The position numbers and the translations under genes were made by a program. The notes under the pieces are model-generated. The model searched no databases. It was given only the letters and a program-made list of their open reading frames with translations, and had not been told where the DNA came from. Positions 6,579-60,766 of a stretch of 64,000 nt of DNA are shown here, piece after piece. Source of the stretch: Jannaschia pagri (GTDB lineage: Bacteria; Pseudomonadota; Alphaproteobacteria; Rhodobacterales; Rhodobacteraceae); assembly GCF_019655435.1 (NCBI RefSeq), contig NZ_BPFH01000007.1, forward strand, positions 62,001-126,000, in the 5' to 3' direction. Position 1 is the stretch's first letter; the number at the start of each line of letters is the position of its first letter.

Positions 6579-7062
6579 GGTCCGTCTCCCGAACCAGATA
6601 GCCGTCTGCCAGCGCTTCAACCTCGATCCGAGGCTCACGCCAGCGGTCTGATTGCCAAACGCCCGCTCTGACTTCGGCATAGCGGCGCCCGTCCGACCGC
6701 CCCATGAGCCGCGCCGAGAGCGATGCCGTCGCCGCCCCTGTCACCGCGCAGGTCGACTCCGTCGTTATGACCCGCAAGCCGCTCCCGTCGGACCAGGCAC
6801 CATTCGCATCGGTCAGACCCCTCATGTCGGGCGTCAACAGATGCTCATAGGGCAAGAGGCATCGCCGTTCGAACGTGTCCCAAAGCCTGTCCCCGGCGGC
6901 AAAGCTCGGCTGCGCCAGGCAAGCCGCTAGGGCGCCAGCCACGACCAGCGGGACAGGCCCGAACCCGCCCTTCGATGTTCCACAAATATGCCGGGGGGGA
7001 TCGGCCAAAGGCCGATGGGGGGCTGGCCCCCCACTCCGCCCGAGACGCGTCCCGTCAGTCAT
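6568..7062 (-). CDS. exported hypothetical protein with a repeat-derived N-terminus
   Basis: The ATG at 7062 overlaps the livG stop (ATGACTGA), a typical coupled start. After MTDG, codons about 5-31 come from a dispersed repeat (hairpin plus core, 6971-7040) and read through to HICGTSK. Only then comes a normal signal peptide (VPLVVAGALAACLAQPSFAAG). The mature part begins GDRLWDTFERRCLLPYEHLL and holds three Cys. If translation starts at 7062 the signal peptide lies about 32 residues from the N-terminus; a GTG inside it would give too short a signal. Family not recognised. 164 residues from the ATG. Confidence 0.62.
   Translation of the reverse strand: MTDGTRLGRSGGPAPHRPLADPPRHICGTSKGGFGPVPLVVAGALAACLAQPSFAAGDRLWDTFERRCLLPYEHLLTPDMRGLTDANGAWSDGSGLRVITTESTCAVTGAATASLSARLMGRSDGRRYAEVRAGVWQSDRWREPRIEVEALADGYLVRETDLEG
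6971..7040 (+). repeat. dispersed repeat family 1, copy 1 (inside a coding frame)
   Basis: The core TTCGATGTTCC, two bases, AAATATGCC occupies 6971-6992. It is followed by two hairpins, atcggcc/ggccgat (7000-7016) and ggggggc/gcccccc (7017-7032). The minus-strand gene starting at 7062 is translated through it. This copy carries an extra hairpin compared with those at 23857 and 60693. Confidence 0.8.
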
Positions 7063-7870
7063 GGGCTACACCGAGATACGCGTCGATCACGTCTTGGTTC
7101 GACCGCACCTCATCGGGTGTGCCATCCCCGATCTTGCGCCCGTAATCCATCACGACGACGCGGTCCGACAGGTCCATGACAACACCCATGTCGTGCTCGA
7201 TCAAGGCAATGGTCGTCCCGAACTCGTCGTTCACATCCAGGATGAAGCGGGACATGTCCTCCTTCTCTTCGACATTCATGCCCGCCATGGGCTCGTCCAG
7301 TAGAAGCAGTTTCGGCTCGGCGGCCAGGGCGCGGGCCAATTCGACCCGCTTCTTCAATCCATAGGGCAGACGACCGACTGGCGTTTTGCGGATCGCCTGG
7401 ATTTCCAGGAAGTCGATCACCCGCTCTACAGCCTCGCGGTTCTCCACCTCTTCGCGGGCTGCGCGGCCCCACCAGAGGCCCTGGGCGAACAGGTTCGAAG
7501 ACATATAGCCCAGGCGCCCCGTCATCACGTTGTCCAGAACGGACATCCCCTCGAACAGGGCGATGTTCTGAAATGTGCGGGCGATCCCTTGCTGGGCGAC
7601 TTGATAGGGCTTCATCGGCGGACGCGGCGCGCCGCGGAACCAGACCTCGCCCTCCTGTGGAATGTAAAAGCCCGAGATGACGTTAAGCATCGACGATTTG
7701 CCCGCCCCGTTCGGGCCGATGATCGCGCGGATTTCGCCCTCGCGGATATCGAACGAGATGTTCTTGATCGCCTCCACCCCGCCGAAGCGCAGCGTGATGT
7801 TGCGCAGGTCGAGGACGGTGCCGCCGATGGTCCGACCGTCTGCGGTCGTGGTGGTTTGCGTGTCTAGCAT
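7055..7870 (-). CDS. livG: branched-chain amino acid-type ABC transporter ATP-binding protein LivG
   Basis: This 271-residue ATPase is the LivG partner of LivF. Walker A is GPNGAGKSS, and a Q-loop region ARTFQNIALFEGMSVLDNV follows. The signature segment is unusual: LPYGLKKRVELARAL in place of LSGGQQ, a variant seen in LivG proteins. Walker B is LLLLDEPMAGM, and the H-loop is ALIEHDMGVV. The stop overlaps the ATG of the next exported-protein gene by 8 bases, and 22 bases separate it from the exported protein before it. The substrate is unknown. Confidence 0.94.
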   Translation of the reverse strand: MLDTQTTTTADGRTIGGTVLDLRNITLRFGGVEAIKNISFDIREGEIRAIIGPNGAGKSSMLNVISGFYIPQEGEVWFRGAPRPPMKPYQVAQQGIARTFQNIALFEGMSVLDNVMTGRLGYMSSNLFAQGLWWGRAAREEVENREAVERVIDFLEIQAIRKTPVGRLPYGLKKRVELARALAAEPKLLLLDEPMAGMNVEEKEDMSRFILDVNDEFGTTIALIEHDMGVVMDLSDRVVVMDYGRKIGDGTPDEVRSNQDVIDAYLGVAHD

Positions 7871-7892
7871 GTCGCTCTCCGTTGGGCGGGGG

Positions 7893-8663
7893 TTATCCCG
7901 CCGTCGCCCCTTGCGTGCGGGGGTCGCGCGTGGCTGATCCCTGTCTGTTCTGTGCCGTCAGCAACGATGGCCCACCGCATGTCGGAACATCCGCTTTCTC
8001 ACTGACGGCGCTGCGAAAATAGCCGGTGGCGGGCTCTACCGTCAGGCTAGCGATGACCGAGCACTCTCGCGCATTTGGTTGGTGCAATTCCATGCCCATG
8101 CGACGGGTGCGGTCGTCGGACCGGAGCGTCACCGCCGTCCAGGCGCCCGTTGCCACGGCACGGTCGCGCATGTCGCCATAGGCATCCCGAAGCAATTCCA
8201 TCTGCGCTGCCGTCAGGCCGGGGCCGCCGCGCCTCGGGATGATCTCGCAGATGGTCCGCGTCCCGGGCCGGGTTTTCATCTCGATCACCCGGAGTTCCAG
8301 GGATCCGCCCGGTCGCCCCCAGACACCCCTCGGGGCCGTTGTTCCGACCCGGGCGACGCCCTGGCCGATGTACCGTCGGGTGCCATCGGTGAGACGGCGA
8401 TTGTAGGTCAACGTGGGCGCCCGCTCCTCCAAGCCGGATAGGTCGATGGCAGAGGCCCCCGCCACGGCTTGGCCGCATCGCGCTTGCAGATCGCGCCACT
8501 CCGTCAGCATATCCGCCGAGGCCGGTGACGAAACTGTGGCGAGCGCCGCGAGGCCAACAAGGGCTGGGGCCAGGCCCCTACGCCGCCAAGGCGACCTGGC
8601 GGCGGCCCGACGACGACCCCCACCAGTGGTCGCAAAGGCGCGGGAGCGAGATGACAGGATCAC
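7893..8663 (-). CDS. exported hypothetical protein between acyl-CoA ligase and livG
   Basis: The GTG at 8663 overlaps the stop of the acyl-CoA synthetase (GTGA), so the gene is translationally coupled. The first 30 residues are very basic, then comes a hydrophobic signal segment (LAPALVGLAALATVSSPASA) with a likely cleavage after ASA. The mature protein begins DMLTEWRDLQARCGQAV and has four Cys. The N-terminal pattern Trp, then Cys about six residues later, resembles the two other exported proteins of this operon. 256 residues from the GTG; a start nearer the signal peptide is possible. Family not recognised. Confidence 0.65.
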   Translation of the reverse strand: MILSSRSRAFATTGGGRRRAAARSPWRRRGLAPALVGLAALATVSSPASADMLTEWRDLQARCGQAVAGASAIDLSGLEERAPTLTYNRRLTDGTRRYIGQGVARVGTTAPRGVWGRPGGSLELRVIEMKTRPGTRTICEIIPRRGGPGLTAAQMELLRDAYGDMRDRAVATGAWTAVTLRSDDRTRRMGMELHQPNARECSVIASLTVEPATGYFRSAVSEKADVPTCGGPSLLTAQNRQGSATRDPRTQGATAG

Positions 8664-10612
8664 TCCGCCGCCTCCAGGACCTTACCGAGCGTCGGAACGA
8701 CCTCCGCATCAACCATCTGCAAGGTCGCGCGGATGGCGCCCTTGCGGCCGTCCTCGTAGGTGACCTCGGTTTCCGTGTAGACCTCGTCCGAGCCATCATA
8801 GAGACCCGCAATCAGATCGGCATATTTCGCCTCAATCGTGCGGCGCTTGACCTTCTGGGTGCGCGTCATCTCCTCGTCGTCGGCATCCAACTGCTTGTGC
8901 AGCACGAGGAAGCGGTGGATCTGGCAACCGGACAGCATCTCATCCTCGGCCACGGATTTGTTGACCGCGGCGACGTGGCTGCGCATCGTCTCGATCACGC
9001 GGGGATGGCCCGCCAATTCCTGGTAGGAGGCATAGGCGATGTTGTTCCGCTCCGCCCAGTTGCCGACTGCAGTCAGGTCGATGTTGAGGAAGGCCACGCA
9101 GCGGTCCTTGCCAGCGCCGAAGACCACGGCTTCATAGATTTCGGGGAAGAACTTCAGTTTGTTCTCGACAAATTTCGGCGCAAACAGTGCGCCGTCGGCC
9201 ATTTTCCCTACGTCCTTGGCACGGTCGATGATGCGTAGGTGGCCCGTCGCCTCTTCGATGAATCCCGCGTCACCGGTTGCGACCCAGCCCTCGGGGTCCT
9301 TGGTCGAGGCGGTCGATTCCGGGTTGTTGTAATATTCCTGGAAGGTGCCGGGCGAACGATAGAAGACCTCGCCCGATGGGGCGATCTTCAACTCCACCCC
9401 AGGGGTTGGCGTGCCCACGGTGTCGGAGCGGACCTCATTGTCCTTTTGTTGGGTGATGAAGACCGAAGCCTCGGTCTGGCCATATAGCTGTTTCAGGTTG
9501 ATCCCGATGGAGCGGTAGAAATCGAACAGCTCCGGGCCGATGGCCTCACCCGCCGTGTAGCCGACACGCACGCGGCTCAGCCCCAAGGTGTTCTTGAGCG
9601 GGCCGAAGACCAGCAGTTCGTTCAACTTGTAGCGAAGGCGGTCGCCGAGCCCCACGTCTTCGCCATCCAGAAGTTTTGGGCCGATCATCTTGGCATGGGC
9701 CATGGCGCTGTGGAACAGCTTCTTTTTGAAGGCTCCAGCGTCCTCCATACGGATCATGACGTTGGTCAGCTGGGTTTCGAAAACGCGGGGCGGGGCGAAG
9801 TAGTAGGTCGGCCCGATCTCGCGCAGGTCATGCATGATCGTATGTTCGCTTTCGGGGCAGTTCACGCAGAAGCCCGTGACCATGGCCTGACCGATGGAGA
9901 AGATGAAATCGCCCACCCAGGCCATCGGCAGATAGGCCAGGACTTCATCCGTCTGGCGCAGCCCGTCAAAGGTGGAGGAGGCCTTGGATGTCTCGACGAT
10001 GTTGTCGTGGCTCAGCACGACGCCCTTGGGCCGCCCCGTGGTCCCCGACGTATAGAGCATCACACAGGTGGTGGCGCCCGTCTGTTGGGCGCGGCGCCGA
10101 TCCAACTCGGCCCGGTCGGCACTGCGGCCCCGCTCCTGCAAGGCCTCCATCGACGACATGGCGGAATGGTCGTACTTCCGCAGGCCGCGCCCATCCAGGT
10201 AGACCACGTGGCGCAGACCTTCGATCTGATCCCGGACCTCCAGAACCTTGTCGACCTGCTCCTGATCGGCGGCGATCACGAATTTGGCGGCGCAATGGCC
10301 CAGGACATAGGCGATCTCTTCGCCGACCGCGTCCTGATAGAGGGGCACGGGGATGGCCCCCGCGCATTGGGCGGCCACCATGGCCATGTAGAGTTGCGGA
10401 CGGTTGCGACCGATGACGGCGATATGTTCCCCGATTTCGATCCCCTCGGCGATCAGGCCGAGCGCCAGCTCTTCGATGTCCGCCTTGGCCCGCGCCCAGG
10501 TCCATTCCTGCCAGATCCCGAATTCCTTCTCGCGGTAGGCCGCTGATCCGGCAAAGGCCGTCGCATTCCGGTCCAGGAATTGCGGGATCGTCCGCAAGGC
10601 GGTGTCGGTCAT
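8660..10612 (-). CDS. AMP-dependent long-chain-type acyl-CoA synthetase
   Basis: The enzyme activates a carboxylic acid to its CoA thioester by way of an acyl-adenylate. It is 650 residues long, in the range of FadD15-like long-chain ligases. Motifs: the AMP-binding P-loop MLYTSGTTGRPKGVVLSH near residues 185-202, YGQTEAS near 380-386, and TGDAGFIEEATGHLRIIDR near 455-473. It is the first gene of the liv operon and is coupled to the next gene by a GTGA overlap. The context suggests that it activates the acid imported by the transporter, or a product of that acid. No close substrate can be assigned. The ATG at 10612 is preceded by GGGAGG. Confidence 0.9.
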   Translation of the reverse strand: MTDTALRTIPQFLDRNATAFAGSAAYREKEFGIWQEWTWARAKADIEELALGLIAEGIEIGEHIAVIGRNRPQLYMAMVAAQCAGAIPVPLYQDAVGEEIAYVLGHCAAKFVIAADQEQVDKVLEVRDQIEGLRHVVYLDGRGLRKYDHSAMSSMEALQERGRSADRAELDRRRAQQTGATTCVMLYTSGTTGRPKGVVLSHDNIVETSKASSTFDGLRQTDEVLAYLPMAWVGDFIFSIGQAMVTGFCVNCPESEHTIMHDLREIGPTYYFAPPRVFETQLTNVMIRMEDAGAFKKKLFHSAMAHAKMIGPKLLDGEDVGLGDRLRYKLNELLVFGPLKNTLGLSRVRVGYTAGEAIGPELFDFYRSIGINLKQLYGQTEASVFITQQKDNEVRSDTVGTPTPGVELKIAPSGEVFYRSPGTFQEYYNNPESTASTKDPEGWVATGDAGFIEEATGHLRIIDRAKDVGKMADGALFAPKFVENKLKFFPEIYEAVVFGAGKDRCVAFLNIDLTAVGNWAERNNIAYASYQELAGHPRVIETMRSHVAAVNKSVAEDEMLSGCQIHRFLVLHKQLDADDEEMTRTQKVKRRTIEAKYADLIAGLYDGSDEVYTETEVTYEDGRKGAIRATLQMVDAEVVPTLGKVLEAAE

Positions 10613-11006
10613 GGTATCCTCCCCTCGGGCTGTCCCTCCCCGGACGGGCCCGCTCGGTCGGCACCGTGGCGGGTGACTCTTGCAAAGGTATTTCCGAAAT
10701 CTTTCGAATTGTAACAGGTCGGGTGTGCCTGCCTTTCGTGGCTAGGCCGGCACCCTTGGGGTGTCACAGTCAGCCTTGGGGGCAAAGACGACTGGCCAAT
10801 GTGCGACCCCAACGACCGACATGCGGCGGTGGCAAAACGTCCTGAGCCTACCGCCGCGGCGGCGTTCCGGGGTACTCAGGCAAGGCCTATCGCAATCGCG
10901 ATGAAGGCCAGGGGGCTCACACCTCGAACGAGGGTTTCACCAGCACACGCAGGCCGTTTCCATCCCAACCGTTAGGGGGATCTTCGCGCCCAACCCTTGC
11001 GCAGGT
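10613..11006. other. gene-free stretch upstream of the liv operon
   Basis: About 390 bases separate the start of the acyl-CoA ligase (read leftwards) from the end of a lipoprotein gene. The only notable feature is an AT-rich island near 10681-10715 containing aatctttcgaatt, in the position expected for the operon promoter. I cannot assign -35 and -10 boxes with confidence. No gene is seen. Confidence 0.4.
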
Positions 11007-11630
11007 CTACCCGCCCGCAGCCTGCACGTATCTGGTGCTCAATTCACCGCGCGCCCGTTTCCACTCGAAGACCTCTAGCCGTGGCGTCCAGTTATACCGG
11101 GTGTCGGCACGCACCGTCTTCCAGGTTAGAACGCCGCCTTGGCGCCAGGGGTCCAGGACCATCCCGTCATACATGCTTGCCCCTTGGGCGCTGACGATGA
11201 CGGTGGAATGCTCCAGCCGGAAGTTGTCATAATTCGCGATGGCCCGGTGCAGGTCCAAAGTGCGGAACCCCTCGGCCTTGAGACGGGTCTCGATGTCCTC
11301 CGCCCAATGCCAGCAGAGCCCGCGAGGTCGCAGCCCCCGATTGACCTTCCAGTTGTGGAGCATCGCATTGTCCGTAATCCGGTACTCATGGCGCAACTGG
11401 GCCGTGTATTCATAGGCGATGCGCGCGGCGCGGGCGGCCTCAAGCGGGTCGATGTTGGACCCAAGCGCCTGAATGCCAGCCGTGAGTGACCGGATATCGG
11501 CCTCACGCTCGGCCAGGCGAGTTGCGCTGATTGCCGGGGGTGGGCCGCTCGCCGGGGGCACCGGGCCGCCGCAGGCCGCGATCAGGGCGAGGCACAGAAC
11601 GGCGCAGATCTTGAGGGGTAGGCCCGGCAT
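11007..11630 (-). CDS. putative lipoprotein
   Basis: A 207-residue protein with a lipoprotein signal (MPGLPLKICAVLCLALIAAC, acylated Cys at about 20) followed by a Gly/Pro-rich linker. The body is a single domain with a Trp-rich C-terminal half (motifs RGLCWHWAEDIETRL, WKTVRADTRYNWTPRLEVFEW). The conserved-looking CWHWA with later Asn and His residues suggests a small folded domain, but I do not recognise it. It is a single gene, divergent from the kinase gene at 11872. Confidence 0.75.
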   Translation of the reverse strand: MPGLPLKICAVLCLALIAACGGPVPPASGPPPAISATRLAEREADIRSLTAGIQALGSNIDPLEAARAARIAYEYTAQLRHEYRITDNAMLHNWKVNRGLRPRGLCWHWAEDIETRLKAEGFRTLDLHRAIANYDNFRLEHSTVIVSAQGASMYDGMVLDPWRQGGVLTWKTVRADTRYNWTPRLEVFEWKRARGELSTRYVQAAGG

Positions 11631-11871
11631 CTTCGGTCGTCTCTCCGATGGTGTCTTTGCGTGCTAGTCGGTTTCGCATCCCCTGAAAAGTCCACCCGCG
11701 CCCGCACGGGCGGGATCCCTCATCGCTCATTTGTCTGTGGCCCCTGACGGTCCAAGCAAGCGTAAGGCCAGGCTGCCCTTTGGGCCGCGCGACCACCCCG
11801 ATGGACCGCCCCGCTGCCCCACGCCTTGCCCTTGCCCGCGCCGGTGGTACGCTCCGGCCCCAGGGGGAGTG

Positions 11872-23363: not shown

Positions 23364-24755
23364 ATGGACATCTCCTTCCGCCTCAACGGACAGGACGCGC
23401 GTGCTCGGATCGACGATCCGACAGAGACCCTTTTGGATTGGCTGCGCACAGAGCGTGGCCTAACGGGAACCAAAGAGGGCTGCAACGAAGGCGATTGCGG
23501 CGCCTGTTCGGTCGTCGTCACGGGCTCCGATGGTGTCCCCCGGGCCCTGAACGCCTGCATTCTTTTCCTGCCCCAACTTGTGGGCAAGGCCGTCCGCACG
23601 GTCGAAGGGCTCAGCGCGCCGGACGGCACGCTCCACCCGATCCAGCAGGAAATGATCGCCGAACACGGCTCCCAATGCGGATTCTGCACCCCCGGGTTCG
23701 TTACGACGCTTGCCGCAGCCCATGCCCGCGGCGACACGGACCACGTCGATCAAATCGCGGGCAACCTCTGCCGCTGTACGGGCTATGCCCCAATCCTGCG
23801 CGCCGCCGCCAAGGCCGCCAAGGCGCCCGTCCCAGACCATCTGCGCGATCCTCCCCTTCGATGTTCCGAAAATATGCCGGGGGAGCGCGAGGGGGCTGGC
23901 CCCCTCGCCCCGACCTCCTCGGATGTACTGGCGGATCTCTATCTGGACGATCCTGAGGCCACCTTGATCGCCGGGGCCACGGATGTGGGGCTTTGGGTCA
24001 CCAAGCAGTTCCGGGACCTGGGGACGGTTATCTTCCTGGATCGCTGCGCGGACCTTCGCGGGGTTGAGGTGGCCGCGGACCACATCCGCATCGGCGCCAT
24101 GACCGACATGGAGACACTCCGCCACGCTATCGCGCCCCATCACCCCAGTTTCGCGGAATTGCTTCGCAGGTACGGCTCAGTCCAAGTGCGCAATGCGGCC
24201 ACCGTTGGTGGAAACATCGCCAATGGGTCCCCGATTGGGGACAGCCCGCCGGCGTTGATCGCGCTCGGTGCGCAATTGCACCTCCGTCAAGGCGCCCGTC
24301 GGCGCACCATACCGTTGGAGACCTTCTTCCGCGCCTATGGCAGCCAAGACCGCGACCCCGGCGAATTTGTCGAGGCTGTCACAATCCCACGGCAACGGGA
24401 TGCTCTGCATTGTCATAAGATTTCCAAGCGGTTCGACCAGGATATCTCGGCGGTCTGCGCCGCGTATAACCTGCCGCTCCAGGATGGGGTGATCACCGGC
24501 GCGCGCATTGCCTTCGGGGGGATGGCGGGCACCCCGAAACGGGCGCCCTCGGTCGAGGCCCTGTTGGAGGGACAGGCGCCGTCCGAAGAGCTGTTCGAGA
24601 CGGCGGCAGAGGCCTTGGCGCAAGATTTCACGCCGCTCAGCGATATGCGCGCCAGCGCGGACTACCGGTTGGAGGCGGCGCGCGGGACCCTGATGGCGAC
24701 CTATCACCGGATGACCGGCGGCGCCTCCGTGAACGTTTTGGATGTTCGCCCATGA
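23364..24755 (+). CDS. xdhA: xanthine dehydrogenase small subunit
   Basis: The 463-residue Fe-S/FAD subunit oxidises hypoxanthine and xanthine to urate together with XdhB. The first [2Fe-2S] cluster uses Cys40, 45, 48 and 65 (CNEGDCGAC, then NAC); the second uses Cys105, 108, 136 and 138 (CGFC, CRC). The FAD domain follows (IAGATDVGLWV near 197-207; GSVQVRNAATVGGNIANGSP). In the linker between them, residues about 162-184 are encoded by a family 1 repeat in frame. The start is the ATG at 23364; the frame is open far upstream but without homology. Coupled to xdhB by ATGA. Confidence 0.95.
   Translation: MDISFRLNGQDARARIDDPTETLLDWLRTERGLTGTKEGCNEGDCGACSVVVTGSDGVPRALNACILFLPQLVGKAVRTVEGLSAPDGTLHPIQQEMIAEHGSQCGFCTPGFVTTLAAAHARGDTDHVDQIAGNLCRCTGYAPILRAAAKAAKAPVPDHLRDPPLRCSENMPGEREGAGPLAPTSSDVLADLYLDDPEATLIAGATDVGLWVTKQFRDLGTVIFLDRCADLRGVEVAADHIRIGAMTDMETLRHAIAPHHPSFAELLRRYGSVQVRNAATVGGNIANGSPIGDSPPALIALGAQLHLRQGARRRTIPLETFFRAYGSQDRDPGEFVEAVTIPRQRDALHCHKISKRFDQDISAVCAAYNLPLQDGVITGARIAFGGMAGTPKRAPSVEALLEGQAPSEELFETAAEALAQDFTPLSDMRASADYRLEAARGTLMATYHRMTGGASVNVLDVRP
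23857..23908 (+). repeat. dispersed repeat family 1, copy 2 (inside xdhA)
   Basis: The core at 23857-23878 is followed after 8 bases by a 10-bp hairpin, gcgagggggc / gccccctcgc (23887-23908). It is read in frame as part of the XdhA interdomain linker (LRCSENMPGEREGAGPLAP). Confidence 0.85.
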
Positions 24756-27061
24756 GCGTGGCCAAACCACTCCCCCACGAAAGCGCTCGCCTGCACGTCA
24801 CGGGGACGGCACGTTATACCGACGATTTTCCCGCCCCGGCGGGTTGCCTGCATTTGGCCTTTGGATTGTCGGAGGTTGCCTCGGGCACGTTGAATGCCCT
24901 GGATGTGAGCGCGGTCCGCGCCGCGCCAGGGGTTGTGGCGGTCCTGACCGCAGACGATTTCGCGGCGATGCCCGATTGCTCCCCCAGTAACCATGATGAG
25001 CCGTTGCTCTGTACGGGGCGCATCCATTATGCGGGGCAGCCGCTCTATCTGGTCATCGCCGAAAGCCACCTGGCAGCCCGGCGCGCCGCGCGTTTGCACA
25101 GGGCCGATGTCACCGAGGCCACGCCGATCCTGACCATTGAAGAGGCTCTGGCTGCGGAGGCCTGGTTCGACGGTGGCCCCCGTGTCTGGTCCGACGGAGA
25201 TGTTGCCACTGCGCTCGCCGAGGCGCCCCACATCCTGCAGGGACAGCTTGAGGTCGGCGGGCAGGAGCATTTCTATCTTGAGGGACAAGCCGCCCTTGCC
25301 CTGCCTGGCGAAGGCGGGGACATGCATGTTCTGACCTCCACCCAGCATCCGACGGAGATTCAGCACAAGGTGGCGGATGCGCTTGGCGTGCCCATGCATG
25401 CGGTCCGGTCAGAGGTTCGGCGCATGGGGGGCGGTTTCGGTGGCAAGGAAAGCCAAGGCAATGCCTTGGCCATCGCCTGCGCGGTGGCCGCCGCGCGCAC
25501 GGGGCGCGCGGCCCGGATGCGGTACGACCGGGACGATGATTTCGTTGTCACAGGCAAACGGCATGACATGCGGATCGGCTATGAGGTCGGCCACGATGCC
25601 AAGGGGCGTCTGCTGGGCATTCGGTTCCGCCACTGGGTGCGCTGCGGTTGGTCCCAGGACTTGTCCCTGCCCGTGGCGGACCGCGCGATGCTGCATGCGG
25701 ACAACGCCTATGACATCCCGGCGATGGAGATCACGTCTTGGCGCCTGCGGACCAACACCCAGTCGGCCACGGCCTTTCGCGGGTTCGGTGGCCCCCAGGG
25801 CATGGTCGGGATCGAGCGCGTGTTGGACCACGTGGCCCATGCGGTCGGCCGCGACCCGCTGGAGGTCCGGCGCCTCAATTTCTACGCCGAAGCTGGCAGG
25901 CCAGCGGATAAGCATATTTTTGGAACATCGAAGTCAGGCGTCACGCACTACGGGCAGGAGGTTTCTGACTTTTGCCTCGGCGCCATGACGGACCAACTGG
26001 CGGCGACCTGCGACTACGCCGCCCGGCGCCAGCGGGTGGCGGAGTGGAACCGTGCGAACCCGGTCTTGAAGCGCGGCATCGCGCTGACACCTGTGAAGTT
26101 CGGGATCTCTTTCACCCTGACACATCTCAACCAGGCGGGGGCGCTGGTCCATGTCTACGCGGACGGGTCGGTGAATTTGAACCACGGTGGGACCGAGATG
26201 GGGCAGGGCCTGCATTCCAAGGTGGCGCAGGTCGCCGCGAGCCGCTTTGGCTGCGATCCGGCCCGCATTCGGATCACCGCGACGGATACGGGCAAGGTTC
26301 CGAACACGTCGGCCACGGCAGCCTCCTCTGGCGCGGACCTGAATGGCATGGCGGTACGGGCTGCCTGCGACAAGATCCGCGACCGTATGGCCGATTTCCT
26401 GGCGGCGGAGCACCAGACGGAGCGATCCCAGGTGATCTTTGCCGACGATAGCGTGCGCGTGGCCGGGGCGGAGTACAGCTTCGCGGAGGTGGCGGCAAAG
26501 GCCTACATGGCCAGGGTTTCACTGTCGTCCACGGGCTTCTACGCGACGCCCGAAATCTCTTGGGATCGGCAGGCGGGGCGGGGGCGTCCGTTCTATTACT
26601 TTGCCTATGGGGCCAGTTGTTCCGAAGTTGTGATTAACACCCTCACCGGCGAGAACCGGATCCTGCGGACCGATATCCTCCACGATGCGGGGGCGTCCTT
26701 GAACCCAGCGTTGGATATCGGCCAGGTCGAGGGGGGATTTGCCCAGGGCGCGGGATGGTTAACCATGGAAGAATTGGTCTGGGACGGGGCCGGGCGCCTG
26801 CGGACCCATGCGCCCGCGACCTATAAGATCCCTTGCGCGTCCGACATGCCCGAGGTTCTCAACGTCCTCCTCTGGCAGGGCGAGAACCGGGAAGAGACGA
26901 TCTATCGCTCCAAAGCCGTGGGTGAGCCGCCCTTCATGCACGGGATCAGCGTCTTTTTAGCCTTGTCCGATGCGCTGTCACAGGACGGAGGGGGGTATCC
27001 CGCTCTGGATGCGCCCGCGACGGCGGAACGTTTGTTGATGGCACATCGCCGCTTGGCATGA
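24752..27061 (+). CDS. xdhB: xanthine dehydrogenase large (molybdenum) subunit
   Basis: The 769-residue molybdopterin subunit carries the hydroxylation site. Motifs: GQEHFYLEGQAALA (near 170-183), the Gly-rich GGGFGGKESQ (near 227-236), FRGFGGPQGM (near 346-355), and the late VGEPPFMHG with the catalytic Glu. Residues about 380-395 contain the stretch KHIFGTSKSG from a family 1 repeat, just before GVTHYGQEV. The ATG overlaps the xdhA stop and the gene's own stop overlaps the xdhC ATG. Length is normal for bacterial XdhB, apart from the insert of about 15 residues. Confidence 0.95.
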   Translation: MSVAKPLPHESARLHVTGTARYTDDFPAPAGCLHLAFGLSEVASGTLNALDVSAVRAAPGVVAVLTADDFAAMPDCSPSNHDEPLLCTGRIHYAGQPLYLVIAESHLAARRAARLHRADVTEATPILTIEEALAAEAWFDGGPRVWSDGDVATALAEAPHILQGQLEVGGQEHFYLEGQAALALPGEGGDMHVLTSTQHPTEIQHKVADALGVPMHAVRSEVRRMGGGFGGKESQGNALAIACAVAAARTGRAARMRYDRDDDFVVTGKRHDMRIGYEVGHDAKGRLLGIRFRHWVRCGWSQDLSLPVADRAMLHADNAYDIPAMEITSWRLRTNTQSATAFRGFGGPQGMVGIERVLDHVAHAVGRDPLEVRRLNFYAEAGRPADKHIFGTSKSGVTHYGQEVSDFCLGAMTDQLAATCDYAARRQRVAEWNRANPVLKRGIALTPVKFGISFTLTHLNQAGALVHVYADGSVNLNHGGTEMGQGLHSKVAQVAASRFGCDPARIRITATDTGKVPNTSATAASSGADLNGMAVRAACDKIRDRMADFLAAEHQTERSQVIFADDSVRVAGAEYSFAEVAAKAYMARVSLSSTGFYATPEISWDRQAGRGRPFYYFAYGASCSEVVINTLTGENRILRTDILHDAGASLNPALDIGQVEGGFAQGAGWLTMEELVWDGAGRLRTHAPATYKIPCASDMPEVLNVLLWQGENREETIYRSKAVGEPPFMHGISVFLALSDALSQDGGGYPALDAPATAERLLMAHRRLA
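25892..25932 (-). repeat. dispersed repeat family 1, copy 3 (inside xdhB)
   Basis: The core lies at 25912-25932 in reverse orientation. A smaller hairpin, gctggc / gccagc (25892-25905), takes the place of the long GC stem. The gene reads through it as DKHIFGTSKSG. Confidence 0.8.
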
Positions 27062-45797: not shown

Positions 45798-45839
45798 GTT
45801 AAGGTTAACCCCCGCCGCTTCGATGTTCCAAAAATATGC
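45798..45839 (+). repeat. dispersed repeat family 1, copy 4 (intergenic)
   Basis: The core at 45819-45839 (TTCGATGTTCC, AA, AAATATGC) is preceded by gttaaggttaac (45798-45809) and CCCCGCC. No long GC hairpin follows. It lies between the convergent ends of the P450 and DenD genes. Confidence 0.75.
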
Positions 45840-48624: not shown

Positions 48625-48669
48625 GGGGTGGTCCTTTCATGTTTCGAACCGCGTGCGCGGTCCGACCGG

Positions 48670-48718
48670 CTGGGGGCTCTGCCCCCAGACCCCCGGAGGT
48701 ATTTGAGCCGAGAAGAAG
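48670..48718 (+). repeat. dispersed repeat family 2, copy 2 (hairpin plus core)
   Basis: An 8-bp hairpin, ctgggggc / gcccccag (48670-48688), is followed by ACCCCCGGAG and the core GTATTTGAGCCGAGAAGAAG, ending at 48718. It lies between nth and the adenosine kinase gene. Confidence 0.75.
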
Positions 48719-48779
48719 ATCATCGGGTTCCCGGGGTATGGCGCGCGGGGGCAGTGGCGTCAAAGCGGGGTGTTACCTG

Positions 48780-54206: not shown

Positions 54207-56438
54207 TCACCGCGTGCGGAGATACTCCATCACAGCCGGGCGCACCGTCTGTTCGCCCGCGTCCCGTGCTGCCGAGATAACCTCCCGCACTTCGGCCAGG
54301 TTAGAGCGCAGCAGGATATGTTTCACCGGTCCGATGGAGGCAGGCCGCATGGACAAACACCGCAGGCCCATGGCTGCGAAGCACAGGGCCTCCACCGGAC
54401 GACCGGCGTCTTCGCCACAGAAACTGACCGGCGTATCTGTCTCGGCGCAGCGCGCCACGATCTGCTCAATCAAGCTCAGGAACGAGACGTTCAGCGTGTC
54501 GTACCGCCGTCTCACCCGCTCATTTTCGCGATCCGCCGCAAAGAAAAACTGTTTCAGGTCGTTCCCGCCGATGGAGATGAAATCGGCCTCTTCAAAGAAC
54601 CGCCGGGGGGCGAAGGCCATCGAGGGGGTCTCTAGCATGGCGCCCACGCGCAAGGTCTCCGGCAGGGCATGACCAAGCGAGGTTTCGCGATGGATCTCCC
54701 GCAGCAGGTGGCCCCGGGCGGCAATGAATTCCTCCATCTGCGCAATGAAGGGAAACATCAGCGACAGGGGGCGCCCATTGGCGGCCCGCAGCAGCGCTTG
54801 CAGCTGCATCCGCATGACGCCCTTCTTGTCCAGCCCCACCCGGATGGCGCGCCAGCCCAGGGCCGGGTTCGGCTCATCCTGGGACTTCATGTAAGGGAGC
54901 ACCTTGTCGGACCCGATATCGAGCGTCCGAAAGGTCACCGTCTTGCCCTTGGCCGCTTCCATGACGCGGGCGTAAAGGCTCGCCAACTCGCCCCGCTTGG
55001 GCACTTTGTTGCGGGTCAGAAACTGCAATTCCGTGCGAAACAGACCAACGCCTTCGGCGCCCGACGATTCGAGCGAGGGAAGGTCCGCCATAAGGCCCGC
55101 GTTCATCAGCATCTCGATCCGATGGCCATCCGCCGTCACGCAGGCCCGATCCCGGATCGAGGCATAGCGCGTTTGCGCTTCGGCCTGCATGGCCAGCTTG
55201 TCGGCAAAGGCCGCCCGGACGGCTTCATCGGGGCGCAAGTGAACGATCCCCTGATCGCCATCCACCAGGATTGGGTCACCGGAGAGGGCCTCGGACGTGA
55301 TGCCACTCGCCTGCAAGACTAGGGGAATTGCCCAGGCCCGTGCGACAATGGCCGCATGGCTGCCCACGGCGCCGTCTTCCAACACCACGCCCCGCAGCCG
55401 CCGCCCATATTCGAGCAATTCACCGGGCCCGATGTTGCGTGCCACCAGCACCGCACCCTCCGGCAGGTCCGAGGTCGCCCGCCCCTGTCCGGTGAGCATC
55501 CGCAACAGGCGGTTCGACAGGTCATCCAGATCCGCAAGCCGATCGCGCAGGTACGGGTCTGCGCCCGCCATACGCGCCCGCGCGGCTGTCTGTTCCTTTT
55601 CGACGGCGGCCTCGGCGGTCAGGCCCGCGTCGATGTCGGCCTCCATCCGCCGCAACCAAGACCGGGAATAGGCAAACATACGAAAGGCTTCGATCACCTC
55701 GGTTTGTTCGCTGTCGCCCGAGGCATTGGTCAGCATTTGGTCGACCGAGACGCGCATGGCATCGATGGCTTCGGTCAGGCGCGCGCGCTCATGGTCTGGA
55801 TCGTCGCTAATGGGCTTTGTTATGACCACGCGCGGGTCGTGCAGGTGTACAACGCCCTCGGCGCTGCCTTCTTGGCCGGTAATGCCCCGCACCATGACCT
55901 GTTGCCGATGACGGGGACGCAGCGCCTCGCCTTCCCCGACGAAGGCCCCCAATTCGGTCATCTCGGCCAGGACCATGGCCACGACTTCTAGGGCGTAGAC
56001 CTCATCGTCGGTGTACGCGCGGGCATCGCGGGATTGCACGACCAACACGCCGAGACGTTCCCCTAGCCGCTGGATCGGCACCCCAAGAAAGCTGGAATAC
56101 ACCTCTTCGCCGGTCTCCGGCATGTAGCGAAAGCCCTTAGTCGATGGGGCATCCCGCGTGTTGACCGCGCGACGGGTGCGCGCGACCTGCCCGACCAGAC
56201 CTTCCCCCACGCGCATCCGTGTCACATGAACAGCCGCCGCATTCAGGCCGAAGGTCGCACAGAGTTCCAGGGTCTCCACATCGCGCAGCAAATAGATGGA
56301 GCAGACCTCTGTCCCCATGGAGGTTGCGACCAGATCGACGATCCGATCCAGCCGTTCCTGGCCCGCGTCGGCATCGGCCATCACACCCTGAAGACGCCGC
56401 AACAATTTGCGGCTTTCGCTTTCCTTGGTCAGCGGCAT
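54207..56438 (-). CDS. ptsP: PTS-Ntr enzyme I, phosphoenolpyruvate-protein phosphotransferase PtsP
   Basis: A 743-residue enzyme that starts the nitrogen-related PTS phosphorelay (PtsP to NPr to EIIA-Ntr). An N-terminal GAF domain (about 20-165) is followed by the EI domain with the phospho-His in GAVGSHAAIVARAWAIPLV, and the C-terminal PEP-binding barrel with GVGLFRTELQFL and the late FCGEDAGRP motif. I chose the ATG at 56438 (MPLTKESESRK) because normal PtsP begins there. It sits just before lysC in minus-strand order, separated by a 566-base gap. Confidence 0.95.
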   Translation of the reverse strand: MPLTKESESRKLLRRLQGVMADADAGQERLDRIVDLVATSMGTEVCSIYLLRDVETLELCATFGLNAAAVHVTRMRVGEGLVGQVARTRRAVNTRDAPSTKGFRYMPETGEEVYSSFLGVPIQRLGERLGVLVVQSRDARAYTDDEVYALEVVAMVLAEMTELGAFVGEGEALRPRHRQQVMVRGITGQEGSAEGVVHLHDPRVVITKPISDDPDHERARLTEAIDAMRVSVDQMLTNASGDSEQTEVIEAFRMFAYSRSWLRRMEADIDAGLTAEAAVEKEQTAARARMAGADPYLRDRLADLDDLSNRLLRMLTGQGRATSDLPEGAVLVARNIGPGELLEYGRRLRGVVLEDGAVGSHAAIVARAWAIPLVLQASGITSEALSGDPILVDGDQGIVHLRPDEAVRAAFADKLAMQAEAQTRYASIRDRACVTADGHRIEMLMNAGLMADLPSLESSGAEGVGLFRTELQFLTRNKVPKRGELASLYARVMEAAKGKTVTFRTLDIGSDKVLPYMKSQDEPNPALGWRAIRVGLDKKGVMRMQLQALLRAANGRPLSLMFPFIAQMEEFIAARGHLLREIHRETSLGHALPETLRVGAMLETPSMAFAPRRFFEEADFISIGGNDLKQFFFAADRENERVRRRYDTLNVSFLSLIEQIVARCAETDTPVSFCGEDAGRPVEALCFAAMGLRCLSMRPASIGPVKHILLRSNLAEVREVISAARDAGEQTVRPAVMEYLRTR

Positions 56439-57004
56439 TCTGCTCTCCCTCTCGGGACACGGGTATAGGGCAGCGGAACCCCGTTGGGGAGGCTTCGTTG
56501 CGTCATGGGCACCAAAGATGCACAGGATATGGACAATCGGACGTTGCACGCCGCCCAACATGGCACTCCTGATCCGCTTCCCGTCTGCTGCGGCGCCGTT
56601 AAGCGCCCAACACGCTCACCACTTGCGCAATCCGATCAGATGTCTGGGCGCATCTCCGGCCGTGCGGTGTTCGAACGCGTCTGCTTGGTCCAGATGGCCG
56701 CCGAAGCCGTTTGACGGAACTGCCACGCGACGGCGTCAGAGCCATCGTCGCCTATATCATATCCTGCCAAAAAATCCGTGACGCCCATGGATCGGACCAC
56801 TCGGAACCGGACGGTGCGCGCACACCAGGTCACACGTCAACCTCTCATTAAGGTTAACGATCCCCGCCTTCTTCTCGGCAAAAATACTTCCGGGGTCTGG
56901 GGCAGCGCCCCAGTCCGCCCCTCAGGTCCCGTGCTGTGGGTACACTGGGGCGCGCAAGGCAAAGCTGTCGCGCAGCAGGAGCCGCCCGAAGCGGCGACCA
57001 GACC
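56439..57004. other. gene-poor stretch between lysC and ptsP
   Basis: About 570 bases. A family 2 repeat is at 56868-56913, preceded by attaaggttaac (56847-56858). A minus-strand frame of 65 codons (56636-56833) is open but has no ribosome site or recognised family; I do not call it. The rest shows nothing. Confidence 0.4.
56868..56913 (-). repeat. dispersed repeat family 2, copy 3
   Basis: On the minus strand a 7-bp hairpin (ctggggc / gccccag) is followed by ACCCCGGAA, GTATTTTTGCCGAGAAGAAG. It matches 48670-48718 closely. It lies about 90 bases downstream of lysC and may serve as its terminator. Confidence 0.75.
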
Positions 57005-58240
57005 TCAGGCCGTTTCCAACTCGAACGCATCGTGCAGCGCTTGGACTGCGAGTTCCATGTACTTTCGGTCGATCAACACGCTGATCTTAATCTCGGACGT
57101 TGTGATGACTTTGATGTTCACGCCTTCGGCGGACAGCGCCTCGAACATCTTGGCGGCAACGCCCGCGTGGGACCGCATGCCAATGCCCACCACCGAGACC
57201 TTGCTGACCTCCGTATCCGCGATCAAATCGTGGAAGTTGATGTCACCGGAATCCTTGGCCTCGGCCATGGCTTTCTCGGCGCGGGCCACTTGATCGACGG
57301 GCAGGCTAAAGGTCATGTCCGTGCGACCATCTTCGGCGATGTTCTGCACGATCATGTCGACGTTGACGCCCGCGTCGGCCAGGGGGCCAAAGATGGCGGC
57401 GCTCACACCTGGGCGGTCGGCGACCGAGACCAGGGTCATCTTGGCTTCGTCGCGGCTAAAGGCGACCCCGGCGACCACATTGCTTTCCATGATGTCCTCC
57501 TCGTCGCAGACCAGCGTGCCCGCGTTGTCGCTCATTTCCTCGAAACTCGACAGCACCCGCAGGCGCACCTTGTAGCGCATGGCCAATTCGACCGAGCGCG
57601 TTTGCAAGACCTTGGCGCCCAACGACGCCAGCTCCAACATCTCCTCGAAGGCGATGGCATCCAGCTTGCGCGCCTTGCGGGTGACGCGGGGGTCGGTGGT
57701 GTAAACGCCGTCCACGTCCGTATATATGTCGCAGCGTTCCGCGCTGTGGGCGGCGGCAAAGGCCACGGCTGTGGTGTCCGACCCGCCGCGTCCCAGGGTG
57801 GTGATCCGGCCTTCGGGGCTGATCCCTTGGAACCCCGCAACCACGGCCACCTGCATCCCGGCGGAAAACTTGGCGTCGAAGTTGTCGGTGGGGATCTCTT
57901 CGATCCGCGCGGCGGAATGGGCAGACGACGTCTTCACGGGCACCTGCCAGCCCTGCCAGGACCGGGCCTCGATCCCGTTTTCCTGCAACACCAGCGCCAG
58001 CAAACCGGCCGTGACGTTCTCGCCCGAGGACACGACCGCATCGTATTCCCGCGCGTCGTACAGGGCGGAGGTTTCGTTCACCCACCCCACCAACTCATTC
58101 GTCTTGCCAGACATGGCCGAGACCACGACGATCACCTCATAGCCCTTGGCCACTTCAACGCCCACGCGTTTGGCGACGCGCTTGATACGGTCGAGGTTGG
58201 CGACGGAGGTCCCGCCGAATTTCATCACGAGTCGCGGCAT
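57005..58240 (-). CDS. lysC: aspartate kinase
   Basis: A 411-residue kinase for the first step of the Lys/Thr/Met pathway. N-terminal kinase domain: MKFGGTSVANLDRIK, VVSAMSGKTNELVG, and FLGRGGSDTTAVAFAA-like RITTLGRGGSDTTAVAFAAA; two C-terminal ACT domains (about 265-410; SVADRPGVSAAIFGPLADAG, VVGIGMRSHAGVAAKMFEAL) for feedback control. I chose the ATG at 58240. Transcribed toward ptsP. Confidence 0.95.
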   Translation of the reverse strand: MPRLVMKFGGTSVANLDRIKRVAKRVGVEVAKGYEVIVVVSAMSGKTNELVGWVNETSALYDAREYDAVVSSGENVTAGLLALVLQENGIEARSWQGWQVPVKTSSAHSAARIEEIPTDNFDAKFSAGMQVAVVAGFQGISPEGRITTLGRGGSDTTAVAFAAAHSAERCDIYTDVDGVYTTDPRVTRKARKLDAIAFEEMLELASLGAKVLQTRSVELAMRYKVRLRVLSSFEEMSDNAGTLVCDEEDIMESNVVAGVAFSRDEAKMTLVSVADRPGVSAAIFGPLADAGVNVDMIVQNIAEDGRTDMTFSLPVDQVARAEKAMAEAKDSGDINFHDLIADTEVSKVSVVGIGMRSHAGVAAKMFEALSAEGVNIKVITTSEIKISVLIDRKYMELAVQALHDAFELETA

Positions 58241-58362
58241 CGGGCGCCTCCGGGTCATTGGTCCGGGGCCTGTTAGGGCAGGGGGCGTCCGGGGGCAAGG
58301 TCAGCAGGCGCCCCACGTCTGCTCACATTGGCAGCTGCGGCCCAAAGCGGTAGAGCGGCCCC

Positions 58363-58908
58363 ATGCCGACCCTCGTCGTCACAGACATCCACGACGCGCC
58401 ATCCGCGTCCCGGTGCCTCTCGGCCCGGTGCGCCCGTCTCCAGCCGGTCAAGCGTCTGTCGTTGGCCGCGCTCAGCGATGCGCCGGGTCTCTCGGGCGCG
58501 GCATTGCATGATCATCTGTTCCGCCAGGATGGCATGGCCAGAGCCGTTGGAGCGCTCCGGGACGTGGACGTGACCGGTTGGATCGGCCTCGGCTACAGTG
58601 CTGGGGGCACAGCGCTCTGGCGCGCGGTCCAGCAGGGCGCGCCGCTCTCCCATCTGTTCTGCGTGTCTTCAACCCGCCTTCGGTCCGAGGGCCCAATCGC
58701 GATCCCGCATCGTGTGTTTTTTGGGGCCGAGGATCCCGCCAGGCCGAACGACGCATGGGTGCGCCAGGTCCCCAAACGCGCCACTGTTTTCGACGGCGCG
58801 GCCCACGACTACTACCTTGATACGGCATCTCGCGCCGTTCGGGAGACGGAGCGGCGGATCCTGTCCGACCTGAGCGATCCATCCACTTTGCCAAATCACG
58901 CCAAATGA
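58363..58908 (+). CDS. small alpha/beta-hydrolase-like protein
   Basis: A 181-residue protein with a nucleophile-elbow-like GLGYSAGGTALW (Ser near 77), an acidic residue in FFGAEDPARP (near 123) and His in DGAAHDYYLD (near 147), so a Ser-Asp-His triad in the right order can be drawn. It is shorter than usual hydrolases and family not recognised. The enzymatic role is inference. Divergent from lysC. Confidence 0.65.
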   Translation: MPTLVVTDIHDAPSASRCLSARCARLQPVKRLSLAALSDAPGLSGAALHDHLFRQDGMARAVGALRDVDVTGWIGLGYSAGGTALWRAVQQGAPLSHLFCVSSTRLRSEGPIAIPHRVFFGAEDPARPNDAWVRQVPKRATVFDGAAHDYYLDTASRAVRETERRILSDLSDPSTLPNHAK

Positions 58909-59249
58909 CGAAGCCGCCTGCGGTTTGTAGGGCAGGGGCCGAGGTAGTGTGCTCGGGACGGGACGATGCGGGCGCGTGCGAAGCTTGCCCGTTCTTGGCC
59001 CGTCCGTGCGTCTAAGCCGTACAACTTCCGTGACGGCGATCCATCCTCACAGGTCTTCAACCGACACGCCCATCGGTCGAACGATCCCCCCTTCTATCTG
59101 CCCCGGCAGCAGCACCTGGCTTTCTACAGACGGCGGCTCGGACCCGAAGGCGGCTCTGCCCTGCGGCGCTGGGCACACGCGACAGAGGCGCCGCGGCCTG
59201 CCATGATCCAGGTCAAAGCCCCACGGCCCAGTTTGTACGAGAGTACCCC
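58909..59249. other. stretch without a confident gene before the DUF2189 gene
   Basis: About 340 bases. A 95-codon frame (58966-59253) ends in a TGA overlapping the next ATG, and has fair codon bias, but no recognisable protein features, so I do not call it. Otherwise nothing is seen. Confidence 0.35.
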
Positions 59250-60026
59250 ATGAACCCGTCGCCCAACCTAAGAGATGTCACGCGATTGACCCTGTCCGAT
59301 TTGATTGCCGCACTCGGGGCGGGCCTTCGCGATTTCGTGACGGCGCCGCAGTACGGGCTGTTCTTTGCGGCGGTCTACGTGGTGGCCGGGTTCGCGTTGC
59401 TGTTTCTCGGGGCGGGGCTGTTCACCTGGACATTGACGCTGACCCTGGGTTTTCCGTTGCTGGCGCCGTTCCTCGCGGTGGGCCTCTATGAGGTGAGCCG
59501 CCGGTTGCAGGATGGGGGAACGCTGCGATTTGCGGATGTGCTGGCAGTGGTTTGGCAAGAGCGGACGCGTCAGATCCCCTGGGCGGGCGCGATGATGCTG
59601 ATCTTTTTCCTGTTCTGGTCCTTCCTGGCCCATATGCTGTTCGCGTTGATCATGGGGCCCGCCGCGCTTTTGGGGCCGCCGGATGATCTTGCCAGCTACT
59701 TGAATGGACGCGGCCTTATGATGATCGGGCTGGAGCTGGCCTTTGGCGGGGTCTGCGCGTTTCTGCTCTTTGCCTTGACTGCCATCAGCCTCCCCATGCT
59801 TCTTGAGCGGGAGGTGGATTTCGTCACCGCCATGCGGTTCAGCCTGCGTTTTACCCGCACGAACATCCGGGTGATGGCCGTTTGGGCGGGGCTGATCGCG
59901 ACGTTGACCATCGCGGCCTTGGTCCCGTGGTTTCTGGGGCTGTTCATCGTCCTGCCAGTGCTCGGCCATGCCAGCTGGCACCTTTATCGTCGCGCGCTCC
60001 CGTCAGAGCAGGGGCCGGTGGGGTAA
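59250..60026 (+). CDS. DUF2189 integral membrane protein
   Basis: A 258-residue inner-membrane protein with about six helices. DUF2189 features: an N-terminal soluble lead, DFVTAPQYGLFFAAVYVVAG, LGFPLLAPFLAVGLYEVSRRL, and the C-terminal DFVTAMRFSLRFTRTNIRVM with LPVLGHASWHLYRRAL. Function unknown. GAGAG serves as its ribosome site. Confidence 0.85.
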   Translation: MNPSPNLRDVTRLTLSDLIAALGAGLRDFVTAPQYGLFFAAVYVVAGFALLFLGAGLFTWTLTLTLGFPLLAPFLAVGLYEVSRRLQDGGTLRFADVLAVVWQERTRQIPWAGAMMLIFFLFWSFLAHMLFALIMGPAALLGPPDDLASYLNGRGLMMIGLELAFGGVCAFLLFALTAISLPMLLEREVDFVTAMRFSLRFTRTNIRVMAVWAGLIATLTIAALVPWFLGLFIVLPVLGHASWHLYRRALPSEQGPVG

Positions 60027-60067
60027 CCCCGCGCGCGACTAAGCCGTCGCCGATCCGCGCGGCCGAT

Positions 60068-60766
60068 CTATTCCGCTGCTAACTCACGAAACTCTGCGAC
60101 CCGCGCCGGGTCCCGCTTGGCAAGGTCCCTGAGCCATCCTTCAATGGCCTGGCGGATGAGCGGGCGCGCATCTCCCGACATCCCATGCGCCCAGGCCAAA
60201 ACCCTTTCGCGAACGGCAACATCGGCCTCCTTCGGGTGGGCCAGCTTTGCCCATGGCCGTGTCCCCTCGAACGCAAGCCGCCGCGCCCAGGGGCTGGCGG
60301 CTTCGGTCCAGCCCGCCACGACATCGAGACGCCCGGGCTCGGCCACCAGCCGCCGAGAGAGTGCCGCGGCCACGGCGTCGCAGATGACCCGACAATCGAC
60401 GTCAAACACCCAGCGCTCCAAAAGGGACCAAGCGCCCCCATCTGGCCGAATGCGCGCCTGGGTTAGGACTTTCGCCGCCAGAACCCGTGTATCGACCACA
60501 CCTTCGCGCCACAGCGCGTCGGCCATCAAAACGCGCCGATCCACCGTCAGGCCGTCCCGCATGGCCTTCGCGGCGTCGCCCAAGACATCCGCAGATAGGC
60601 CCCAGGTTTCCCGGGTCGTCCTGTTGGCTGCCTGGTCCCGCGCTGCCCGATCTGCGTCGCCATGGGATCTGAGCGCCTCCAGGAGCGCGTTCTTCGATGT
60701 TCCGGAAATATGCCAGGGAGCGCGAGGGACTGGTCCCTCGCCCCCGTCCTTTGCACCATCGGTCAT
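60068..60766 (-). CDS. DNA alkylation repair (AlkD-like) protein with a repeat-derived N-terminus
   Basis: A 232-residue HEAT-like repeat protein of the AlkC/AlkD group: MADALWREGVVDTRVLAAKV, LLERWVFDVDCRVICDAVA, and a C-terminal IEGWLRDLAKRDPARVAEF match family order. The ATG at 60766 overlaps the glmS stop (ATGA). Codons 5-26 come from a family 1 repeat that reads WHISGTSKN. No other start codon exists between the repeat and the family-like sequence, so the repeat must be translated. Last gene of glmU-glmS. Confidence 0.8.
   Translation of the reverse strand: MTDGAKDGGEGPVPRAPWHISGTSKNALLEALRSHGDADRAARDQAANRTTRETWGLSADVLGDAAKAMRDGLTVDRRVLMADALWREGVVDTRVLAAKVLTQARIRPDGGAWSLLERWVFDVDCRVICDAVAAALSRRLVAEPGRLDVVAGWTEAASPWARRLAFEGTRPWAKLAHPKEADVAVRERVLAWAHGMSGDARPLIRQAIEGWLRDLAKRDPARVAEFRELAAE
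60693..60741 (+). repeat. dispersed repeat family 1, copy 5 (N-terminus of AlkD-like gene)
   Basis: The core at 60693-60714 is followed by a 9-bp hairpin, gcgagggac / gtccctcgc (60722-60741), with loop TG. The hairpin base pairs differ from the copy at 23887 by compensated changes (ggggg to ggga; ccccc to tccc). Confidence 0.85.

Follow-up and report, generated by a model that had tools for sequence, protein, structure and literature searches.

Palindromic repeats with heads that vary among genomes, probably renewed within each genome, lie between and inside genes of Rhodobacteraceae

The best-known protein-coding palindromic repeats are those of Rickettsia, and Wolbachia has counterparts of the Rickettsia palindromic elements (RPEs). 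Here we describe a short repeat of Jannaschia pagri that also enters reading frames; it was found in a window of 64,000 nt (positions 62,001 to 126,000 of contig NZ_BPFH01000007.1, assembly GCF_019655435.1), the whole stretch of DNA that was analysed. According to a passage of PMC10969869, RPEs are about 150 bp long, and in one genome 44 of their integrations lie in metabolic genes. Repetitive extragenic palindromic sequences (REPs) also occur inside open reading frames (ORFs), and two Xanthomonas species carry different REPs at nearly the same position in recB, as a section of PMC3733652 describes, so that the reuse of a site has a precedent there. For the element described here, we regard it as probable that it belongs to a family of non-autonomous, interspersed palindromic repeats of about 50–75 nt, widespread in the Rhodobacteraceae in the broad sense, the copies of which are renewed within each genome.

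The original prediction, made from the window, had placed five copies of a core, TTCGATGTTCC-NN-AAATATGC, at 6971 (+), 23857 (+), 25912–25932 (−), 45819 (+) and 60693 (+). All five are present without a single mismatch, against a chance expectation of 0.01 copies (mean of 100 shuffles of the window). The idea of a dispersed repeat, which would fail if the core were absent from the rest of the genome, also survived: the J. pagri genome contains 43 exact copies and 57 copies with at most three mismatches, compared to none for the pattern read backwards, which served as the control. Outside the two-base hole 43 of the 57 copies are perfect, and in the hole itself 13 of the 16 possible dinucleotides were observed. 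The 57 copies were chosen by their likeness to the core, so that the invariance is partly a selection effect, which does not touch the variability of the hole. Among 60 genomes, including that of J. pagri, the exact core was otherwise found only in G002 (7 copies) and was absent from the other 58. The exact core is nearly private to J. pagri and is one dialect of an element present across the family. An Rfam search of the window gave zero matches. It had been noted that no description of such an element was known for this lineage, and the open-access literature indeed yielded no description of a family-wide element with heads that vary among genomes and a two-base hole; what changed is the standing of the core itself, from an element to a dialect.

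A typical copy is composed of one or two GC hairpins, the block CCCCGG-x-RTATTT, two free bases, and a head of 11–12 bases, with a total length, as read from the copies, of about 50–75 nt. The same plan with other heads, one to a few per genome, was detected in 18 of 20 genomes of the genus, J. pagri included; G008 contributes a single doubtful match to this count, and the reversed pattern gave four matches in the 20 genomes. A looser, general pattern matched 140 of 197 Rhodobacteraceae genomes (one per genus, J. pagri included), with 0 to 172 matches per genome, some sites being counted twice because of the variable gaps. The reversed general pattern produced 20 matches in 15 of the 197 genomes, and therefore genomes with one or two matches may owe them to chance. 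An earlier pattern, the head of which was one base too short for most dialects, had matched 33 of 198 genomes.

The heads include GGAACATCGAAG in J. pagri, GCCAGGATGAAG and GCCAGGAAGAAG in G018, and CCAAGAAAGGG in G013, and in many genomes several heads coexist. One of them, CCGAGAAGAAG, is common to J. pagri, G003, G005 and G015; in J. pagri it accounts for 11 of the 23 general-pattern sites, two of which are in the window, at 48704 (−) and 56882 (+). From the relatives, 40 loci of the 63 sites of G018 and 20 of the 35 sites of G013 were fetched, giving 61 element rows. In the G018 copies that were read, the bases flanking the hole covary: GCCAGGAAGAA goes with GATATTT in 9 of 9 cases and with AGTATTT in 0 of 32. 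The copies are of several types, having one hairpin (CCGGGGGCCAGCCCCCGG-A-CCCCCGG), two hairpins, or a CCTCCGGCGG stem.

Four of the five window copies had been predicted to lie in frame, and translation bears out both their location and their peptides (HICGTSK, HIFGTSK, HISGTSK and CSENMPG). Two of these copies are in the genes for xanthine dehydrogenase. In xdhA (23364..24755, +; small subunit, TIGR02963 above cut-off), the copy at 23857..23910 (+), consisting of the core at 23857–23877 and a GC hairpin, is in frame (CSENMPGEREGAGPLAP) and antisense to the gene, in the linker that connects the Fe-S domain to the FAD domain. In xdhB (24752..27061, +; molybdopterin-binding subunit by profile matches), the copy at 25889..25932 reads ..ADKHIFGTSKSGV.. 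in the sense of the gene (+) with its core at 25912–25932 on the − strand, and encodes an insert of residues 383–394. The DNA homology to a Rhodobacter xdhB stops at about 25889. In an AlphaFold2 model of XdhB built from an alignment of 31 sequences, the predicted local distance difference test score (pLDDT) of the insert is below 50 (mean of the model 84), so that the insert is modelled as a low-confidence loop; seven further short stretches also fall below 50.

The loop of XdhB was then compared in 100 orthologs, 20 from the genus and 80 named ones, with TATTT alone as the criterion. Inserts bearing TATTT were found in 15 of the 20 and in 21 of the 80, and the loops of distant relatives (Rhizobiales, Acetobacteraceae and others) are 18–36 nt long and lack such an insert. 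In a tree built without the loop (99 rows), all 36 element-bearing rows are located within a Rhodobacteraceae-side group of 76, and none of the 23 rows outside it carries the element; within the Rhodobacterales, the genus of J. pagri clusters with Roseicyclus and Poseidonocella. The presence of the insert changes at least 22 times on this tree, 10 of the changes being forced by well-supported branches (quick method). In G006, G015, G019 and G004, both the element and the corresponding residues are absent from xdhB, and within one genus the head and hairpin type at this site of xdhB can differ strongly between species. In the XdhA linker, RTATTT in the opposite orientation is present in 8 of the 20 genomes of the genus, and AAATA, a weak criterion, in 13 of 78 readable named loci. 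At the insert site, the crystallised XdhB of R. capsulatus (1jro and four more entries) has ERGGLSAPPSPPEPIATKKTQ, which, going by its sequence, appears to be a decayed copy.

Other sequences were also observed at these two sites. The XdhB loop of G004 (L078) holds a GACGTC-rich repeat (CGTCATGACGGACGTCACGACG) instead of the element, and two other recurrent coding motifs fill the loop in other Rhodobacteraceae, one like RFGGPHSP (L098, L105, L111, L128, L130 and L158) and one like DLASRGA (L101, L103, L108, L120 and L126); these motifs may represent additional repeat families or a loop of older origin. In the XdhA linker of Tritonibacter (L124), half-hairpins look tandemly repeated (AEPP..AEPP..AEPP), as if stems had been copied.

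The occupied sites allow a direct comparison between the head inside a gene and the heads of the other copies of the same genome. The heads in xdhB and xdhA were compared to head lists from 18 genomes, a match being defined as at least 9 of 10 positions; the lists were de-duplicated by hand and are of unequal length, and that of G009 represents a small part of its 116 sites. The head in xdhB matched its own genome in 14 of 15 cases and that in xdhA in 7 of 8, compared to 22% and 5% of the comparisons with other genomes, respectively, which match because some heads are common to several genomes. The permutation p is 2e-5 for both genes, the floor of the 50,000 draws. An earlier version with 14 genomes gave p 5e-5; the final one adds heads found with another hairpin type. 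In G007, G009, G013 and G018, the heads in xdhA and xdhB differ from each other and each matches its own genome. Given that identical bases are translated in the sense frame, in the antisense frame, or not at all, such matching makes one ancient, drifting insertion, or selection on the peptide, hard to credit. The view that the peptides are ancient protein parts, and their likeness to intergenic repeats a coincidence of GC-rich coding, can claim that the loops of orthologs vary in length and sequence, but we find it barely conceivable: the same nucleotides occur in sense frames (xdhB, the genes for alkylation repair and a secreted protein, and bchB), in antisense (xdhA) and in non-coding DNA, the heads match as stated, and the outgroup loops are 18–36 nt long.

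Hairpins had been reported for four of the five window copies, and they were recovered beside the cores at 23857, 60693 and 6971 (two stems at the latter), with a small one at 25912 and none obvious at 45819. The folding of the individual copies relative to shuffles gave z values of −2.15 (23857), −0.29 (6971), +0.35 (25912), −0.85 (60693) and −0.56 (45819). With folding this weak, the four window stems alone would not prove structure, which qualifies the earlier claim of compensated stem changes; the covariation itself was obtained from relatives. Second hairpins were recognisable in 27 of the 61 rows of G018 and G013. They comprise 18 distinct stems, in which 104 of 108 outer pairs are formed, compared to a maximum of 92 with shuffled arms, and five of the six pair positions change on both sides. 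The stems were trimmed by the predicted fold before the test, and this trimming favours paired stems; it replaced a test on untrimmed arms that was the wrong one, in which 47 of 114 pairs formed and 4219 of 5000 shuffles did equally well. In J. pagri, four consecutive G occur within 13 nt of the core in 24 of the 57 copies, mostly with GC hairpins after them, and a few other copies, such as that at 60693, have a hairpin without this G run. In addition, a separate GC hairpin like GGGGGTCCGGGGGGCGTCCCCCGG, lacking RTATTT and a head, recurs near the copies L015, L017, L026, L047 and L054.

Three further copies were located in frame in other genes. The copy at 6971..7032 (−; core 6971–6991, two hairpins to about 7032) is read as ..RHICGTSK.. 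near the N-terminus of a small ORF (6568..7062, −) that has no Pfam match and the product of which is probably secreted, to judge from a hydrophobic, signal-like stretch after the element. Orthologs of this ORF were detected in 4 of 19 relatives: the site is empty in G002 and occupied by a different head in G003, and the other two are in G018 and G010. The copy at 60693..60745 (−) is in frame with its hairpin (GGEGPVPRAPWHISGTSK) in the N-terminus of a DNA alkylation repair protein (60068..60766, −; DNA_alkylation, PF08713, E 4e-31), the ATG of which overlaps the stop codon of glmS. Within 150 nt downstream of glmS, an element with TATTT is present in 3 of 20 genomes (G000, G003 and G009) and a decayed one in G019; in J. 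pagri, and by reading also in G009 and G019, it forms the N-terminus of the next gene. G002, the nearest relative by GlmS, has no element after glmS, and its alkylation-repair gene lacks the respective residues. It had been argued that the repeat idea fails if orthologs without a repeat keep the same residues; the empty orthologs of xdhB and of the alkylation-repair and secreted-protein genes lack them. Outside the window, a copy in bchB (L023) lies in the linker that joins the nitrogenase-like domain to the PCP_red domain and is read as ..PPRHISGTSND... Among eight bchB orthologs, taken from 13 plasmid records, the element is intact in Thalassococcus, decayed in Tateyamaria and absent from 5, and the linker of Sulfitobacter S190 looks by eye as if it perhaps contained a remnant.

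Altogether, 5 of the 57 copies of J. pagri were shown to be in genes, compared to 78.5% coding sequence in the window (binomial 2.5e-29). The latter value comes from a home-made codon-usage gene caller that missed two real genes (6568–7062 and 60068–60766), both recovered via orthologs. A scan of open frames revealed further N-terminal candidates, e.g., L026, L012, L042, L004, L033, L048 and L009, which could raise the number from five to perhaps fifteen, and genes would still be avoided. Most of the remaining copies look intergenic, and two copies of relatives, L220 and L169, may lie in genes. The fifth core of the window (45819..45839, +) has no GC hairpin and is placed by the gene calls between convergent P450 and epimerase genes. 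Both second-head copies of the window have a hairpin, approximate outer limits, and an intergenic position according to the home-made caller: 48655..48721 (−), with CTTCTTCTCGG-NN-AAATAC..CCGGGG, and 56868..56925 (+), which is preceded by TTAAGGTTAACG. Upstream of some copies with either head, a motif TTAAGGTTAA(CG) is found, in 10 of the 57 copies at most 60 nt before the core and also at about 56850, ahead of the second-head copy; we take these motifs to be, possibly, CtrA-like half sites.

The explanation that we prefer, copies renewed within each genome, is based on the occupied and empty orthologous sites, the match of heads to their own genome, and the covariation of the stems. Each genome has one to a few heads common to its copies, some of them recurring in several species; most copies are found between genes, and some have entered genes. 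Being GC-rich and having few stop codons, the element could survive in frame at positions where an extra loop does not harm the protein, such as linkers, surface loops and N-termini. The XdhA linker, the XdhB loop, the BchB linker and the N-terminus after glmS would then gain copies, lose them, and be filled again with the local dialect of the time, and copies might spread or replace one another via an enzyme recognising RTATTT-NN-head. A more far-reaching possibility, for which we see a low likelihood, is that RTATTT-NN-head is the target of a trans-acting system, similar to homing or conversion, which overwrites dispersed copies, including those in genes, with the local spelling. Such a system would keep rewriting short stretches of xanthine dehydrogenase and the BchB subunit and would never read the two-base hole.

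Several observations weigh against renewal within the genome, or against the structural plan. The folding of individual copies is mostly no better, or at best modestly better, than that of shuffles, more than half of the copies of J. pagri have no clear GC hairpin, and CCCCGG is also missing in 3 of the 8 xdhA copies of the genus (G014, G016 and G018). Two heads failed to match their own genome (G010 xdhB, 6 of 10 positions; G016 xdhA, 8 of 10). The orthologous copies compared on Paracoccus chromids have kept their places between P. pantotrophus and either P. versutus or P. ferrooxidans, in regions with about 5–11% divergence. At one place, 43 nt of hairpin and TATTT are identical and the head differs, and at one place hairpin and TATTT are better conserved than the sequence around them, a pattern more like selection than like free mobility. 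In P. denitrificans, the head side of one copy is preserved next to an entirely different second hairpin, and a further copy does not appear in the alignable sequence (absence or rearrangement). Some copies are thus long-lived, and hairpins can be exchanged en bloc. Neither an autonomous partner nor a transposase was found, the search having covered Y1_Tnp, which is absent from the J. pagri genome. The comparisons after glmS and in Paracoccus, all of them between species, revealed no exact insertion boundary or target duplication at the divergence that they offer, and the alignable Paracoccus sites were occupied in the close species.

The persistence in Paracoccus would also be expected if RTATTT-NN-head were bound by a protein or RNA of chromosomal origin, the specificity of which drifts between lineages, so that the spelling tracks the protein as in the dialects of DNA uptake sequences. 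All copies, the genic ones included, would then be selected functional sites with little or no mobility. The two near-invariant blocks that flank the fixed two-base hole of the 57 copies, a result favoured by the selection at three or fewer mismatches, and a geometry that is fixed across the family agree with such a site. Nevertheless, we rate this account as rather unlikely, since some orthologous sites have a hairpin-bearing insert and others lack it, congeneric species have quite different heads and hairpin types at one xdhB site, and several heads occur together in many genomes. We assign a still smaller probability to the elements being transcription terminators or stabilisers of RNA 3′-ends, with a GC hairpin, a short T tract, and enrichment after stop codons. 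The paired stems would suit this role, as would the orientation of the neighbours of 54 G018 and G013 copies with both neighbours called, which are divergent in 6, convergent in 18 and tandem in 30 cases by rough gene calls. However, no terminator was called at 6850–7150 or 60600–60850 in a scan of these two copies, the elements have both orientations relative to the neighbouring gene, the conserved head lies past the would-be end, and in-frame copies should cut the transcript of their gene.

Some narrower identities were set aside. An intrinsic terminator in the strict sense, i.e., a GC stem with a direct T run, was rejected after the negative scans at the two copies scanned. A promoter of the stress sigma factor EcfG was considered for GGAAC...GTT, and was dropped as the spacing to the TTAACC motif varies by eye and GGAAC is missing in other dialects. 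For an uptake sequence, 57 copies look far too few. An identity with the system of REPs and their associated tyrosine transposases (RAYTs) was rejected upon the negative Y1_Tnp search of the J. pagri genome. As a separate observation, in the tandem pairs at L219, L221 and L211 of relatives, a purine-rich head and G runs lie about 8–11 nt ahead of a called start codon, and from its sequence the head could act as a ribosome-binding site.

These repeats matter in several ways. They mean that free-living bacteria carry an element comparable to RPEs in well-studied enzymes, among them the xanthine dehydrogenase of R. capsulatus, with its solved structure and apparent decayed copy. As heads differ between genomes, the source of a copy is traceable by its sequence, which makes its gain, loss and replacement within proteins accessible to comparisons of many genomes and to bench experiments. 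Scattered mostly between genes and found also in several enzymes, the element adds a new example of the ways in which repeats get into proteins and alter them.

The original prediction had likened the repeat to RPEs, and the occupied and empty orthologous sites support the likeness. Both are short palindromic repeats with several families that enter unrelated genes in frame, here xdhA, xdhB, the genes for the alkylation-repair and secreted proteins, and bchB, with orthologous sites that are empty or decayed. Stems are formed in G018 and G013, and more than half of the J. pagri copies have no clear GC hairpin. In contrast to RPEs, for which the passage of PMC10969869 gives about 150 bp, the element is about 50–75 nt long and mostly intergenic, its heads vary from genome to genome and are set off by a two-base hole, and it reuses the same protein sites across genera. 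The five proteins gave no NCBIfam match named for RPEs at E 1, the presence of RPE models in that library being unconfirmed. The notion of an RPE-like protein-coding repeat thus holds insofar as the element enters frames, but with 5 of 57 copies shown to be genic it is equally REP-like. It shares with REPs a short length, hairpins, and a position mostly between genes and sometimes inside ORFs, as far as the section of PMC3733652 describes them. It differs from them in having a head of 11–12 bases instead of a tetranucleotide, in showing by eye, uncounted, no GTAG/CGTC end tag (CGTC occurs within some second hairpins), and in that the J. pagri genome has no Y1_Tnp gene; RAYT-type Y1_Tnp matches of any strength were found in 3 of the 20 genomes of the genus, two of them above the cut-off. 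With miniature inverted-repeat transposable elements such as RUP, ERIC and NEMIS, the element has in common that it is non-autonomous and dispersed and is occasionally fused in frame, again following the passage in PMC10969869; terminal inverted repeats beyond the hairpins were not seen in the copies.

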